Assembly: GCF_023195915.1 (NCBI RefSeq)
Contig: NZ_JALPRP010000001.1
Coordinates: 1,612,001 to 1,676,000 of the forward strand
Reading direction: 5' to 3'
Length of the DNA stretch: 64,000 nucleotides
Source of the DNA: Methanoculleus sp. 7T
GTDB taxonomy: Archaea; Halobacteriota; Methanomicrobia; Methanomicrobiales; Methanoculleaceae
The first letter of the stretch is position 1, and the number at the start of each line of letters is the position of its first letter. The position numbers and the translations under genes were made by a program. Below, in pieces: positions 12,248 through 17,695 of this stretch. The notes under the pieces were generated by a model. The model saw nothing but the letters and a program-made list of their open reading frames with translations. It made no database searches and had not been told where the DNA came from.

Positions 12248-12604
12248 ATGACGAATGCCTGTGGCATATCTGCGCATACGGGCGAATCTGGTGCTGTTAT
12301 ATCGGTAACAGGGAGGATTGACGCCTCTTCGGCCGGCCTCCTGGATGCCGAGCTTTCCCGACTCATCGGCGGCGGCGAGCGCGCGATCGTCGTCGAGATG
12401 GGAGGGCTTGAGTATATCAGCAGTTCCTGCCTTCGTGTGCTCCTTGCGGCAAAGAAGAACCTCAAGAGATCTGGTGGGGATCTCACGATAGCCGCCCTGA
12501 CGCCCTTCGTACGGGAAGTCTTCGAAATATCCGGGTTCCTGAGGATATTTTCTGTCTATGAGAGTGTCGAGGAGGCTACCGAGAGAATGGGACAGACCGG
12601 ATGA
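12248..12604 (+). CDS. STAS-domain anti-anti-sigma factor homologue (SpoIIAA/RsbV-like)
   Basis: A 118-residue single STAS domain. The block GGLEYISSSCLRVLLAAKKN places serines where SpoIIAA/RsbV are phosphorylated. In bacteria such proteins bind and sequester the RsbW/SpoIIAB kinase when unphosphorylated. Here it is the first gene of a four-gene operon with a phosphatase and a kinase of the same type, overlapping the phosphatase by four bases (ATGA). Archaea have no sigma factor, so the final target must differ. Confidence 0.88.
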   Translation: MTNACGISAHTGESGAVISVTGRIDASSAGLLDAELSRLIGGGERAIVVEMGGLEYISSSCLRVLLAAKKNLKRSGGDLTIAALTPFVREVFEISGFLRIFSVYESVEEATERMGQTG

Positions 12605-13962
12605 GCGCCGAGATACCGGAGTTGCTCGTTCTCCTGCAGATGATCTGCGTCATCATCGTCGCAGCCTACTTCATCACCAGGACCGAGATCTTCACCGAAG
12701 CGCTTGAACGGCGGCTTTCGTTCAGGAGCGGGGCGTATCTCATCCTGTTTTTCGGCATCCTATCGATATACGGGACCCTGAGCGGCGTCGAGGTGCTCGG
12801 CGCACCGATCAATGTGCGGGACCTCGGTCCCATGGTCGCCGGCATCTTCTGCGGACCGGTGGTCGGTATCGGCGCAGGGCTCATCGGCGGCGCCTTCAGA
12901 ATGGGACTTGGAGGGTTCAGCGCCGTCTCCTGCTCGCTCTCAACGGTCCTTGCCGGCGCTCTCGGCGGGGCGATCTATTACGCCCACAGAGGGCGCCCGG
13001 TCACCGTCGGAACCGCGGTCGGGTTTGCCGTAGGCATGGAGGTGCTGCACATGGGGATCGTGCTGCTCATATCCCGCCCCTTTGAGGCGGCCCTGGACCT
13101 CGTCAGTCAGGTGAGCCTGCCGATGATCCTCGCAAACGCCATCGGAATGTTCATTTTTGCAAAACTGAACACCAACCTCCTTACCGAGAGACGGACAAAG
13201 GCCGAGCGCGACGCCTACCACGAAGAACTCCAGCGCAAAAAAGCCGAGCTCCAGATTGCAGCTGATATCCAGCAGACTTTTCTTCCGAAGTCCATCCCCA
13301 CACCGAAGGGATTCGACCTCCTCGCCGTCAGTTGTCCGGCACGGGAGGTCGGCGGCGATTTTTACGACGCCATTCCTCTTGGGCAGGGCAAAACCGGGCT
13401 CGTTATCGCAGACGTCTCGGGCAAGAGCGTCTCCGCGGCGCTGTACATGGCGCTCTCCCGCACGATCATCAGGGCGACGGCAACGTGGCATCCCGATGTC
13501 TCTCTCGCTCTTGCCGATGCGAACACGATAATCGAAGAGCAGTCGGATTCGGGCATGTTCGTCACCCTCTTCTACGGCGTGCTCGACGAGAAGACCCGGA
13601 CGCTCACCTACGCGAACGCCGGTCACAACCCGCCCCTCCTTCTCAGAGCAGGCGCCACGGATTTCGGCCGCCTGATGCCGACGGGTGTGGCGCTCGGTGC
13701 CGCCGGCGATCAGGAATACGGCGCGGAACAGGTCACCCTGCTTCCTGGCGACCTGCTCGTCCTCTACACCGACGGTGTGACCGAGGCGATCAACGGGAGC
13801 AACGAGGAATTCAGTGAGGCCAGACTGATGGAGACGATACGCAGCGTGCGCGAACACTCGTCACGGGAGATCATCCGCGAGATCAGGGACGTGATCGACG
13901 GGCATGCGGGAGGCGAGCCCCAGTTCGACGACATCACCCTGATGGTGCTCAAAGGGGTGTAA
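12601..13962 (+). CDS. Membrane-bound SpoIIE-type PP2C phosphatase
   Basis: A 453-residue protein. N-terminal half (about 1-190): membrane domain resembling the 5TM LytS sensor module, with NVRDLGPMVAGIFCGPVVG. A short coiled linker (about 195-225) leads into a SpoIIE/RsbU PP2C domain (about 230-453) with all metal-site motifs: EVGGDFYDA, VIADVSGK, NAGHNPP, YTDGVTEA and FDDITLMVL. It should dephosphorylate the STAS proteins encoded on either side in response to a membrane or extracellular signal. Catalytically it looks intact. Confidence 0.92.
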   Translation: MSAEIPELLVLLQMICVIIVAAYFITRTEIFTEALERRLSFRSGAYLILFFGILSIYGTLSGVEVLGAPINVRDLGPMVAGIFCGPVVGIGAGLIGGAFRMGLGGFSAVSCSLSTVLAGALGGAIYYAHRGRPVTVGTAVGFAVGMEVLHMGIVLLISRPFEAALDLVSQVSLPMILANAIGMFIFAKLNTNLLTERRTKAERDAYHEELQRKKAELQIAADIQQTFLPKSIPTPKGFDLLAVSCPAREVGGDFYDAIPLGQGKTGLVIADVSGKSVSAALYMALSRTIIRATATWHPDVSLALADANTIIEEQSDSGMFVTLFYGVLDEKTRTLTYANAGHNPPLLLRAGATDFGRLMPTGVALGAAGDQEYGAEQVTLLPGDLLVLYTDGVTEAINGSNEEFSEARLMETIRSVREHSSREIIREIRDVIDGHAGGEPQFDDITLMVLKGV

Positions 13963-13964
13963 CG

Positions 13965-14384
13965 ATGGAGGAGGTCACGATCGATGCCGCCATATCGTCC
14001 CTGCCGGGTGCGCTCGCCTCGGTGACCGAGATCCTCGGACGTCTCGGCGTGCCGGAGAAGACCGTCCGGGAACTTGAACTTGCGGTGGACGAGGCCGTGA
14101 CCAACATCATGCTGCATGGGTATGCCTCTTCGGAAGGCCGGATTCGGCTCTCCTGCCGGCGTGATGGGGACATGGTCCGGATACGGATTGAGGACGAGGC
14201 GCCGCCCTTCGATCCCACGGAGGTTCCCGAACCCGATCTCGGAGGAGACGCCGATGACCGGCCCATAGGAGGCCTTGGCATCCACTTTATCCGAAACATG
14301 ACCGACGAAATCGGATACGAGCGTACTGAGGGACGGAACATCCTGATCCTTGGAAAACGTATCAAGACGACCGATGGGAGGTAG
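13965..14384 (+). CDS. RsbW/SpoIIAB-like serine kinase (anti-sigma factor homologue)
   Basis: A 139-residue GHKL ATPase. The N box ELAVDEAVTNIMLHGY, the G1 region IRIEDEAPPFDP and the G2 region PIGGLGIHFIR are intact, so it should bind ATP and phosphorylate STAS partners. It starts two bases after the phosphatase gene. In bacteria the same protein would hold a sigma factor; here the output is unknown, with the long STAS fusion downstream an obvious candidate partner. Confidence 0.92.
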   Translation: MEEVTIDAAISSLPGALASVTEILGRLGVPEKTVRELELAVDEAVTNIMLHGYASSEGRIRLSCRRDGDMVRIRIEDEAPPFDPTEVPEPDLGGDADDRPIGGLGIHFIRNMTDEIGYERTEGRNILILGKRIKTTDGR

Positions 14385-14388
14385 AAAG

Positions 14389-15651
14389 ATGGAGATCGTT
14401 ACGGAAAGAAAAGATGATGTGCTGATATTCGGAGTGAATGGGCGACTGGACGGCTACGCCGCGTCCCAAGTCGCGGTTGAGATCGAGCGCAGCCTGAGGG
14501 ACGACGACCGGTCGGTCGTCGTGGATCTGGATGGGCTGACCTACATGAGCAGCGCCGGAATCAGGGTCCTTCTGGCGCTCCAGAAGAAGGTGAGAGCGAG
14601 AGGCGGGGGGATTGCCCTCTGCAATATCGGAGAGTACCCGAAGAACGTGCTCTCCATGGCGGGCTTCGACAAGGTCTTCCCGATATTCCCGTCCCGTGAC
14701 GAGGCCTTCAGGGAAATGCGGAAGCGTGAGGACAGTCTCTCCCTGATCGCAGACCTGAAGAACCCCATGACGGAACGGGGAAGCGCACGGTTCGGGTTCG
14801 AGACTGTATCCCGGACTCCCGCATCGCTGAGGGTGAAGGGAGACCGTTCCGCTCTTGCCCGGAACCGCATCGGCGAGGAAGATATCGGCGCAGAGCGTCT
14901 CTCCGAGATCGAGTACTCGCTGGGCCTTGGCGCCCTCGGGAGCACGGTTGAGGACACGATGCCGTTCCTCGGCGAGATGATGACACTCCGCGGCTCCATG
15001 ATCTGGCTTCCGGACGACGGCCACGATACGCCCGATTTCTTTGTCCCCGCCGGAGATATTGGTGAGGTCAGGGCATACACGGCATTCAACCTCTCCCTTG
15101 AGGGGTCGTTCAACGAGATCGCTGCCATCGAGGCGACCGACGAGGACGGGATCGCCCTCGACGCCCTGTACCGGGCCGTCTTCGCGCTCGCAAAAGAGAG
15201 GAAGAGGGATTGCCGCGGGATTCTGGCGACGGCGATCTGGGGCGTTGCCGCGGATTTCAAAGGCATGGGCACGAAGCGGCCGCCTGCCCCGATAGACGGC
15301 GACTCAACCCCGGCGGAAAACCGCACGGCAGCGAACTATGAAGGCTACAGCATCGTCGCCTTCGGCATCGGCATCGACCGCTCCGCCGACCTCTCGGGAT
15401 ACGACCGATCTGCGCTTGACGCCATTCTCGCCCCTCAACCGGAAGGAGGGGATACGAACGGTCTTTACCTCCACAATCACGGCGCCGTCTTCAGAAACGC
15501 ACCCTGGGACCCCGAAGCGGACCTGATCAAGGGGATCGAGCGGTGCCTTGCGGACGGGGAGTTCGTCGATATGCGCCACCTGCTCGATACGACGAAGATC
15601 CGCCGTGCAAAAGTCGGGATCGCCTATATCTCCGCGATCAAAAGGAGATAA
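14389..15651 (+). CDS. STAS domain fused to an unknown C-terminal domain
   Basis: 420 residues from the ATG at 14389, which has GGGAGGT a few bases upstream. Residues about 1-110 form a second STAS domain with DLDGLTYMSSAGIRVLLALQ, the SpoIIAA phosphoserine site. The remaining 300 or so residues carry no motif I recognise; they are mixed alpha/beta, with a repeated style (ALGSTVEDTMPFLGEMM; AYTAFNLSLEGSFNEI; IVAFGIGIDRSADLSGY) and a His-containing NGLYLHNHGAVF. The fusion suggests the C-terminal domain is the output switched by phosphorylation. Confidence 0.82.
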   Translation: MEIVTERKDDVLIFGVNGRLDGYAASQVAVEIERSLRDDDRSVVVDLDGLTYMSSAGIRVLLALQKKVRARGGGIALCNIGEYPKNVLSMAGFDKVFPIFPSRDEAFREMRKREDSLSLIADLKNPMTERGSARFGFETVSRTPASLRVKGDRSALARNRIGEEDIGAERLSEIEYSLGLGALGSTVEDTMPFLGEMMTLRGSMIWLPDDGHDTPDFFVPAGDIGEVRAYTAFNLSLEGSFNEIAAIEATDEDGIALDALYRAVFALAKERKRDCRGILATAIWGVAADFKGMGTKRPPAPIDGDSTPAENRTAANYEGYSIVAFGIGIDRSADLSGYDRSALDAILAPQPEGGDTNGLYLHNHGAVFRNAPWDPEADLIKGIERCLADGEFVDMRHLLDTTKIRRAKVGIAYISAIKRR

Positions 15652-15656
15652 TACTC

Positions 15657-15662
15657 TTTTTT
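15657..15662 (+). terminator. T-tract terminator after the partner-switching operon
   Basis: A run of six T begins five bases after the operon's last stop. Such runs end archaeal transcripts. The converging gene ends at 15703. Confidence 0.5.
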
Positions 15663-15702: not shown

Positions 15703-17439
15703 TCAGGTCGGCCGCGGCGCAGGTCCGCTCATGCCCGGAGCATCCTCACCTGCAAAACAGACCTCGACCCGGGCGGTGCCGTCCCGGGTCTCGACGGCGC
15801 ATCGGCCCCCGCACCGTGCGAAGCGCCGCTCGTAGACCCCGGCATACGGCCAGTCCGGATGCAGGGCATCGGATGCGATCGCGATCGTCGCGCCGTCCGG
15901 CGTTCCGGCCACCGTGATGGCGACATTCTTTGCCCCGGCTGCAGCGAGGTCTTCGATGAGGCCGGTGATGCCGTCGCAGAGCCGATCGGGATCGGTCATA
16001 ACCGGGAGGGGGCGGGTGCGGACCTCCACGCTGACCGCGGTCTCCTCAAAAATGACGGGGTTTGCGATCCGTGCGGCGAGCGCCGTAAGAAATGCCGCTT
16101 CGTCCTCGGCTGCGGCGATCATCGCATCGTCGAGGTACGAGGGGTCTTTGAGCCTCGCGACAAACGTTTCAAGGCATTCGGCAAGGTCTACGTTCCGGTC
16201 GTTCAGCCTCTCGTTGAGGCCGTAGACCGTAGAGAGGCAGTCCGTAAGGAGGTACCGCACCCTCCGTATGAGGGAGGCGTCGAGCACCGGGTCGTTCGGG
16301 CCGGAACCGAGGGCCCTCTCGATCTTCCCTACGATCTGGACGGCCTTGAGCACAAACTGGATCTCGATCTTTCTTCCTTCCCCGAGTTCGCCGGCAAAGG
16401 TCGAGAAGTTGGTGAGGAATTCATCGATTGCATCGTTCTGGAGAAGGTCGCGGTATCTTTCCGCCTCCTCCGTCTCCCCAAGTTCCTCCAGGTAATACGA
16501 GAGATAATAGAGCCTGCCGCCGATGACGGAGAAGAGTTTTCCTGCTTCTATGAGCATATCCCGTGCGTAGGAGACCGAGGCGCGGAGGCGATCGGGATCG
16601 AAGGTTGAGATGCCCTTGAGTTTTTTCGCCTCCGTCTCAAGGGATCCGAGCGCCTTGAGGGTATCGGAGACGGACAGCCCGCGGCCGTGGCCGTTCCAGC
16701 AGAAAGCGATCTCCCCGGACTCAAGGATCAGGCGGGCCGCCCGGATCGAGGCACAGAGGTGATCGCAGTTCCAGCGGTGCAGACCGGCAATCCCCGGGCT
16801 GGCCGCAAAGAGGATGTCCCCGATGAAGAGGTGCTCCCCGATTCTGATGAAGATGGAATCGGGGCTATGGCCCGGCATATAATACACGGTGCATGTCGTC
16901 CCCGACTGATAGGTGACGTGCTGCCGGTACAGCACCGTCCCGTCATCGACCTGCATCTGATCGGTGGAGAGGCGCACCGTGCGGCCGCATGCCTCCACCG
17001 TCCGTTCGCCTCCGCAAGCCCGGTCCTCCCTGGTCAGGAGATGGACGTCCACCGGCACCGGCTCGATCTCCCGACCGTACATCTCCGCAACCGTCTGGTG
17101 CGGGTCGCCGGCCTCAAGCGCCAGCGCCCCCTCTTCTTGGGCGAAGACCGCAACCCTCGAGGATGCTATCCGCTCCCGGTGCCTGATGACGCCGTGTGCA
17201 TGGTCGAGATGGCAATGCGTAAGCAGCACGGAGACGCCGCGGGGGCGTTCTCCGTTTGCCGCCCGTATCGCCGCGACGAGCGATGCGATATGGGCCTCAT
17301 CGGCGCCCGTATCGATGACGATGATCTCTCCGGGTGTGCTGACCAGATAAGCGTTCGAACAGCAGACGTCCGGGTACCGCGTGAAGGGAAGTAGAGTTGC
17401 GCCGCCGCTTCCGGGGATCTCAATCCAGTCTCCTTCCAT
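15703..17439 (-). CDS. Metallo-beta-lactamase domain fused to a histidine-kinase-like module
   Basis: 578 residues from an ATG at 17439 preceded by GAGGAG. Residues 1 to about 270 are a metallo-beta-lactamase fold with an intact site: HCHLDH (75-80), YMPGHSPDS, FIGDILF and the late NGHGRG. A helical middle part (about 280-470) resembles a dimerisation/HisKA_2-like region, and the C-terminal 110 residues (DPDRLCDGITGLIEDLAAA, then VAITVAGTPDG) look like a degenerate GHKL ATPase. The GHKL G boxes are not convincing, so it may be a pseudokinase. It converges on the partner-switching operon, suggesting a related sensory role. Confidence 0.7.
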   Translation of the reverse strand: MEGDWIEIPGSGGATLLPFTRYPDVCCSNAYLVSTPGEIIVIDTGADEAHIASLVAAIRAANGERPRGVSVLLTHCHLDHAHGVIRHRERIASSRVAVFAQEEGALALEAGDPHQTVAEMYGREIEPVPVDVHLLTREDRACGGERTVEACGRTVRLSTDQMQVDDGTVLYRQHVTYQSGTTCTVYYMPGHSPDSIFIRIGEHLFIGDILFAASPGIAGLHRWNCDHLCASIRAARLILESGEIAFCWNGHGRGLSVSDTLKALGSLETEAKKLKGISTFDPDRLRASVSYARDMLIEAGKLFSVIGGRLYYLSYYLEELGETEEAERYRDLLQNDAIDEFLTNFSTFAGELGEGRKIEIQFVLKAVQIVGKIERALGSGPNDPVLDASLIRRVRYLLTDCLSTVYGLNERLNDRNVDLAECLETFVARLKDPSYLDDAMIAAAEDEAAFLTALAARIANPVIFEETAVSVEVRTRPLPVMTDPDRLCDGITGLIEDLAAAGAKNVAITVAGTPDGATIAIASDALHPDWPYAGVYERRFARCGGRCAVETRDGTARVEVCFAGEDAPGMSGPAPRPT

Positions 17440-17695
17440 CCGTCTCCTCGTGCAGGGAGAAATCAACGTGCGCGGCAATATGCGCATCGGAAGGTCTGCC
17501 GCACCCTATCACGACCGGAACGGTATCATCAAAAAATCCAAAAAAACGCAAGGGTTGAGAGGGAGAGGATTCTCCCCTATGTTCGCACTCTCGAACCCGC
17601 CCGAAGAGCGTATGCATCCGGCGATGTCGGAGTGACCGGGAGGGCGCCGTTACGCCCCTTCACCTGACGAACGTCCGGCGGTCCCAAAACCGGTA

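Follow-up and report, generated by a model that had tools for sequence, protein, structure and literature searches.

In the partner switches of Bacillus, RsbU/RsbV/RsbW-SigB and SpoIIE/SpoIIAA/SpoIIAB-SigF, unphosphorylated STAS proteins sequester a serine kinase, phosphorylation releases the STAS protein, and the switched partner is a sigma factor. The output of SiaABCD in Pseudomonas aeruginosa is an enzyme, a diguanylate cyclase, and not a sigma factor. Here we analyze an operon of this type from the archaeon Methanoculleus sp. 7T, found at positions 12248-15651 of a 64,000-nucleotide stretch of its genome (GCF_023195915.1, contig NZ_JALPRP010000001.1; hereafter the window, to which all positions refer). 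Its four genes encode a single-domain STAS protein (STAS1), a membrane phosphatase, an RsbW-type kinase, and a STAS protein fused to a long C-terminal domain (STAS2). A first-pass annotation had described the locus as a complete Rsb-like operon in an archaeon. The operon is present, but the fusion unit also occurs in bacteria, and the three-gene core was reported earlier among the Methanomicrobiales 'sigma factor regulators' Memar_2467-2469 and Mlab_1450-1452, whose targets were unknown (Anderson et al., 2009; PMC2686161). The core finding is therefore known and not new in itself. The passage of that paper on these genes covers the same three core genes and makes no mention of a STAS-fusion protein like STAS2, a metallo-beta-lactamase (MBL)-fold partner, lateral transfer, or bacterial copies. 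The function of anti-sigma-type regulators in archaea without sigma factors has been a puzzle since 2009. New here are the domain of STAS2, which is predicted to resemble alpha-acetolactate decarboxylase (ALDC), the STAS fusions across the order and in bacterial phyla, ALDC genes beside the kinase gene, and an MBL-fold fifth gene.

The four open reading frames (ORFs) are intact, lie on the forward strand, and match their Pfam families above cut-off, which bears out the gene identities and the tight one-directional layout first proposed. STAS1 (12248-12604) is of the RsbV/SpoIIAA type (Pfam STAS, 8e-20; SpoIIAA in the PDB, 2.4e-11), with S59 as predicted phospho-acceptor. Its end overlaps by 4 nucleotides (ATGA) the start of the phosphatase gene (12601-13962), whose product joins a 5TM-5TMR_LYT sensor (amino acids 29-189) to a SpoIIE-type PP2C domain (amino acids 262-451; Pfam 1e-44 and 2.4e-51). 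A gap of 2 nucleotides separates this gene from the RsbW/SpoIIAB-type serine kinase (13965-14384; HATPase_c_2, 1.1e-28; PDB matches RsbW, 1.3e-6, and SpoIIAB, 3e-5), and a further 4 nucleotides lead to STAS2. We placed the start of STAS2 at ATG 14389 rather than at TTG 14350 of the ORF list because GGAGG lies upstream of this ATG and the starts of homologues agree with it. The protein consists of a STAS domain (amino acids 1-110, 14389-14718; Pfam STAS, 2e-22), with S55 as predicted phospho-acceptor, and the long domain (amino acids 113-420, 14725-15651), which ends at the stop codon. A run of six T shortly after STAS2 (15657-15662, forward strand) could, from its sequence, plausibly terminate transcription of the operon. 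Since the operon recurs across Methanomicrobiales, its arrangement is not a matter of chance.

The residues expected to carry out the phosphorylation chemistry of a Rsb/Spo module are all in place, as the first-pass annotation had suggested. Ser59 of STAS1 is kept in 63/63 homologues. Ser55 of STAS2 is kept in 110/113 (92/94 archaeal and 18/19 bacterial), and two of the three exceptions are alignment gaps. In the kinase, the N-box residues E43 and N47 occur in 70/71 homologues and D77, R99, G103, and G105 in 71/71; the metal-binding aspartates of the phosphatase (D253, D271, D391, D444) are present in 41/41. Thus the phosphorylatable STAS serine, the GHKL serine kinase with its N box and G boxes, and the PP2C with its metal ligands are all shared with the bacterial module.

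We then counted the components of such switches in the window's own genome, which is 99.9% complete. The sole SpoIIE match is the phosphatase of the operon. For HATPase_c_2, the kinase is by far the best match and the only small stand-alone protein, the weaker matches lying within long frames. Three STAS matches were obtained: STAS1, STAS2, and a 607-amino-acid frame, probably a SulP transporter. No sigma-70 region 2 (Sigma70_r2) was found in the genome by a search that was positive in 10 bacterial controls. This agrees with the earlier idea of a switch that works without a sigma factor, and it sets the operon apart from the Rsb/Spo module. Nor does the genome encode the RsbS plus RsbT-type set of the stressosome (RsbR/S/T), since its small STAS proteins number only two and it has a single kinase of this type. 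With these counts, no alternative kinase partner other than STAS2 is visible, and the fused domain of STAS2 is consequently the best-supported output, one of the possibilities raised by the first-pass annotation. We consider it rather probable that the operon is a sigma-free partner switch in which STAS2 is the switched partner or gate.

With the Bacillus systems the operon has in common its STAS, GHKL kinase, and PP2C families, catalytic residues, and gene layout. It differs in the missing sigma factor, the fusion of a second STAS domain to an ALDC-like domain, the 5TM-LYT sensor on the phosphatase, and the MBL-fold partner. The output would also differ from that of SiaABCD, a STAS-fused ALDC-like domain here and a diguanylate cyclase there; the membrane PP2C, kinase, and STAS protein are common to both (PMC7647112).

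The long domain of STAS2 (amino acids 113-420) matches no family in Pfam or NCBIfam. An AlphaFold (AF2) model of STAS2 built from 29 homologues (pLDDT 86, pTM 0.84) was compared with known structures by Foldseek, which returned several ALDCs (E 5e-8 to 4e-6, prob 1.00) with TM scores of 0.54-0.68 over the ALDC length for the predicted model; the other matches were SpoIIAA/RsbV, for the N-terminus, and PTD012. In hhalign comparisons with archaeal ALDCs, a GEM-L-G-W-P-DG motif aligned with P=0.002, as against 0.19-0.78 for unrelated pairs. The full-length alignment stops short of the His region; the case for homology beyond the fold is therefore built on the model, this short motif, and residue conservation. 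E196, H362, H364, D394, R396, and H397 are conserved. E196, H362, H364, and H397 resemble the catalytic Glu of the ALDC LDGE motif and the HxH...H Zn ligands, and are found in 19/19 bacterial copies and 81-91 of 94 archaeal copies (86-97%). Judged from residue numbering and motif order, they would correspond to E65, H194, H196, and H207 of the Brevibacillus enzyme. The model thus predicts a previously undescribed domain with an ALDC fold, which probably binds metal. It shares with ALDC (AlsD/BudA, PF03306) the predicted fold and the short GEM-L-G-DG motif, and has a similar-looking LGEM Glu and H-x-H...H set; unlike ALDC, it is fused to STAS, predicted to be cytosolic, and interrupted by a long insertion before the last His. 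In the literature collection searched, no paper combines 'acetolactate decarboxylase' and 'STAS domain'.

Across the class, the ALDC-like domain was found in 102/232 genomes, every one within the order Methanomicrobiales. STAS2 is present in 61/150 genomes of the order, and 60 of these 61 are kinase-positive; these genomes are phylogenetically correlated and the counts are uncorrected for phylogeny. Among GTDB archaea outside the order the domain occurs in Candidatus Methanolliviera and Methanophagales, and among GTDB bacteria in Chloroflexota, Bacillota, Verrucomicrobiota, Lentisphaerota, and Sumerlaeota, as well as on one contig labelled Dependentiae. It is fused to STAS in 111/113 distinct copies. 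Of the two remaining copies, one is truncated by a contig edge and the other (L250) has STAS in the ORF just upstream. At five bacterial loci (L236, L240, L246, L253, L258) the fusion gene lies close to PP2C and kinase genes; bacteria therefore carry the same fusion beside the same genes, and archaea are not alone in having the unit. The tree calls for two transitions between the bacterial and archaeal domains; in it, the Chloroflexota copies cluster with those of Methanolliviera and Methanophagales. Because some source genomes are metagenome-assembled genomes (MAGs), misbinning is possible for some of these copies. That a number of bacterial phyla have this same fusion hints that partner switches linked to metabolites form a broader class. 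In a Dethiobacter MAG (L246:10924-12786), a 5TM-type PP2C and an RsbW-type kinase are naturally fused into a 620-amino-acid protein encoded next to the STAS-ALDC-like gene.

Genes of acetolactate metabolism also occur beside the switch. In six Methanocalculus genomes (L262-L265, L269, L272), authentic ALDC genes (PF03306) lie next to the kinase gene in divergent orientation. In Syntrophothermus UBA1445 the gene order is PP2C, STAS, kinase, a 1304-amino-acid protein ending in ALDC, STAS, GNAT, and STAS2. A Chloroflexota locus (L236) has, between STAS1 and PP2C, two ORFs that jointly resemble the large subunit of acetolactate synthase. The kinase-adjacent ALDCs have N-terminal hydrophobic segments and look exported, and are therefore not the same protein as STAS2. 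The linkage of acetolactate genes to the switch hints at a common ligand or pathway and is no proof of mechanism. An acetolactate-type ligand for STAS2 is possible but less likely than not. The 1304-amino-acid Syntrophothermus protein (L240:4236-8150) is of secreted type and consists of a glycoside-hydrolase-3-like part, S-layer-like repeats recognized by eye, and the C-terminal ALDC. The window's genome (G000:C1:404417-405070; L268:5379-6269), like many other archaeal genomes of the phylum, encodes an ALDC that has a hydrophobic N-terminus and is apparently exported.

These observations can be assembled into a working scheme. The kinase would bind and phosphorylate STAS1 and/or STAS2 at the conserved Ser, and the membrane phosphatase would take the phosphate off under the control of its 5TM-LYT sensor. 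STAS1 and STAS2 would compete for the kinase, such that dephosphorylated STAS1 captures it and frees STAS2; competition is the simplest scheme for a genome in which a single kinase of this kind faces only two small STAS partners. STAS2 would then stand in for the sigma factor, with the ALDC-like domain as output. Alternatively, this domain might sense a small metabolite and feed its level back into the switch; acetolactate or a similar 2-oxo/2-hydroxy acid is a conceivable ligand. On a wider view, which we regard as possible but doubtful, a widespread class of sigma-free switches spanning archaea and bacteria would have, as the kinase's alternative partner, a STAS protein with a metal-dependent ALDC-fold domain, and sensing or turnover of acetolactate, a product of pyruvate overflow, would let metabolic state set the switch. 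Counting across the genome narrows the outputs to a single concrete candidate, STAS2 with its new domain, and a fifth gene of the unit was identified; both bring the output question within reach of direct tests on a few purified proteins.

Several results weigh against STAS2 as the switched partner and against an ALDC-type function for its domain. STAS2 lies far from the kinase and phosphatase genes in many genomes, and it was not detected in 25/85 kinase-positive genomes, where at least the kinase has to act through something else; a transcription factor is a possible partner. The 28 domain members tested gave no match to AAL_decarboxy (PF03306) at E<=10, and a PDB profile search at the same threshold returned nothing. 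The spacing from the HxH pair to the last His is longer than in ALDC. The active-site Arg of the Brevibacillus enzyme, presumably R145, appears to have no equivalent: in a hand alignment the position is Ile/Thr-like, and the conserved R396 is at another site. The likeness to ALDC is thus mainly structural.

In one alternative, the ALDC-like domain is an input. STAS2 would be a sensor-STAS protein like RsbR of the stressosome that tunes the kinase or phosphatase, and the true output would be encoded elsewhere in the archaeal genome, for instance a transcription factor. Fusions of a sensor to STAS are well established (RsbR, YtvA), the genomes with a kinase and no STAS2 need another output, and the retained ALDC-like residues fit ligand binding as well as catalysis. 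However, we found no further small STAS partner, nor did a conserved regulator gene turn up next to the operon, and we judge this alternative rather unlikely. We regard as improbable the related idea that the operon derives from a bacterial Rsb operon and that its kinase controls a basal transcription factor, either a TFB/TFE paralogue or a sigma-region-4-like protein. Bacterial modules mostly control sigma factors, and sigma-region-4-like proteins have been noted in Methanomicrobiales (PMC2686161), but the genome lacks sigma-70 region 2 and the neighbours checked at bacterial loci with a STAS fusion beside the kinase are enzymes and transporters, not sigma factors. Finally, decay or silence of the circuit in this genome, which might be read from codon 61 of STAS1 (12428-12430), a Cys in the window alone where 62/63 homologues have Gly two residues past S59, is very improbable given that all catalytic residues are intact, the operon is tight, and conservation reaches 91-95% identity in a second Methanoculleus genome (G040) and about 70-85% in Methanofollis genomes.

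The conserved additional gene that the first-pass annotation had envisaged in Methanomicrobiales is a convergent one encoding an MBL-fold protein (15703-17487, reverse strand; Pfam Lactamase_B, 3e-10; AF2 pLDDT 84; Foldseek matches GloB/MBL) with intact metal motifs (HCHLDH). It is found repeatedly next to the operon (L032, L033, L034, L038). Methanoregula-type genomes (L048, L065) have it in one operon together with a STAS1 homologue, and in the Methanolinea type (L267, L273, L274) the two are joined as an MBL-STAS1 fusion. All 62 of 62 genomes with the gene are kinase-positive (Fisher p 4e-23, uncorrected for phylogeny). Judged from this linkage, it is part of the switch unit, and its product could be a further sensor or modulator acting via STAS1. 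The C-terminus is helical with a small alpha/beta domain and may be a degenerate GHKL-type module, a weak assignment made from the topology of the model and from hhalign (P=0.01-0.017). In other Methanoculleus genomes (L162:1985-17657, L163-L169), the kinase operon and the MBL gene bracket a conserved cluster of a second STAS, a HEAT-repeat protein, a dicarboxylate transporter, an AMP-binding enzyme, and a DUF3821 protein; considered as candidates, the last four offered no clear output. The methyltransferase, FKBP, and MFS neighbours in Methanofollis were rejected as unit members, the window being without them.

The unit reached this genome by lateral transfer. For XseA, the window has 82-87% identity with its congeners and 55-59% with Methanofollis-type genomes; the module genes are about 70-85% identical to two Methanofollis-type genomes (G003/G009) and about 40-60% to most congeners except G040, with which the circuit genes share 91-95% identity. 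In the STAS2 tree, the window and G040 are nested in the Methanofollis clade (100/98). The opposite-strand MBL gene has the same identity pattern, so five genes moved as one unit, and because each is single-copy in the genome, the transferred set appears to have replaced a native one.

Variants of the components were seen elsewhere. In Methanoregula/Methanolinea-type genomes (L052-L057; for example L053:4445-6793 and L056:5433-7787), longer STAS2-like proteins of ~785 amino acids have at their C-terminus Pfam TCAD9 (ternary complex associated domain 9), which takes its name from NTP-dependent conflict systems. A divergent STAS2 paralogue without H-x-H (L058:947-4264, L060, L061:6694-9953, L062) is paired with a separate ~635-amino-acid PP2C protein, in one case with a HAMP domain; the pair would be a second form of the system, apparently one without metal. 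The kinase of a single genus (f6 g20; L170:2360-4771, L171, L172) forms the C-terminus of a ~800-1000-amino-acid protein with a Cthe_2159-like carbohydrate-binding stretch, encoded beside STAS and a divergent PP2C, and is possibly membrane- or surface-linked.

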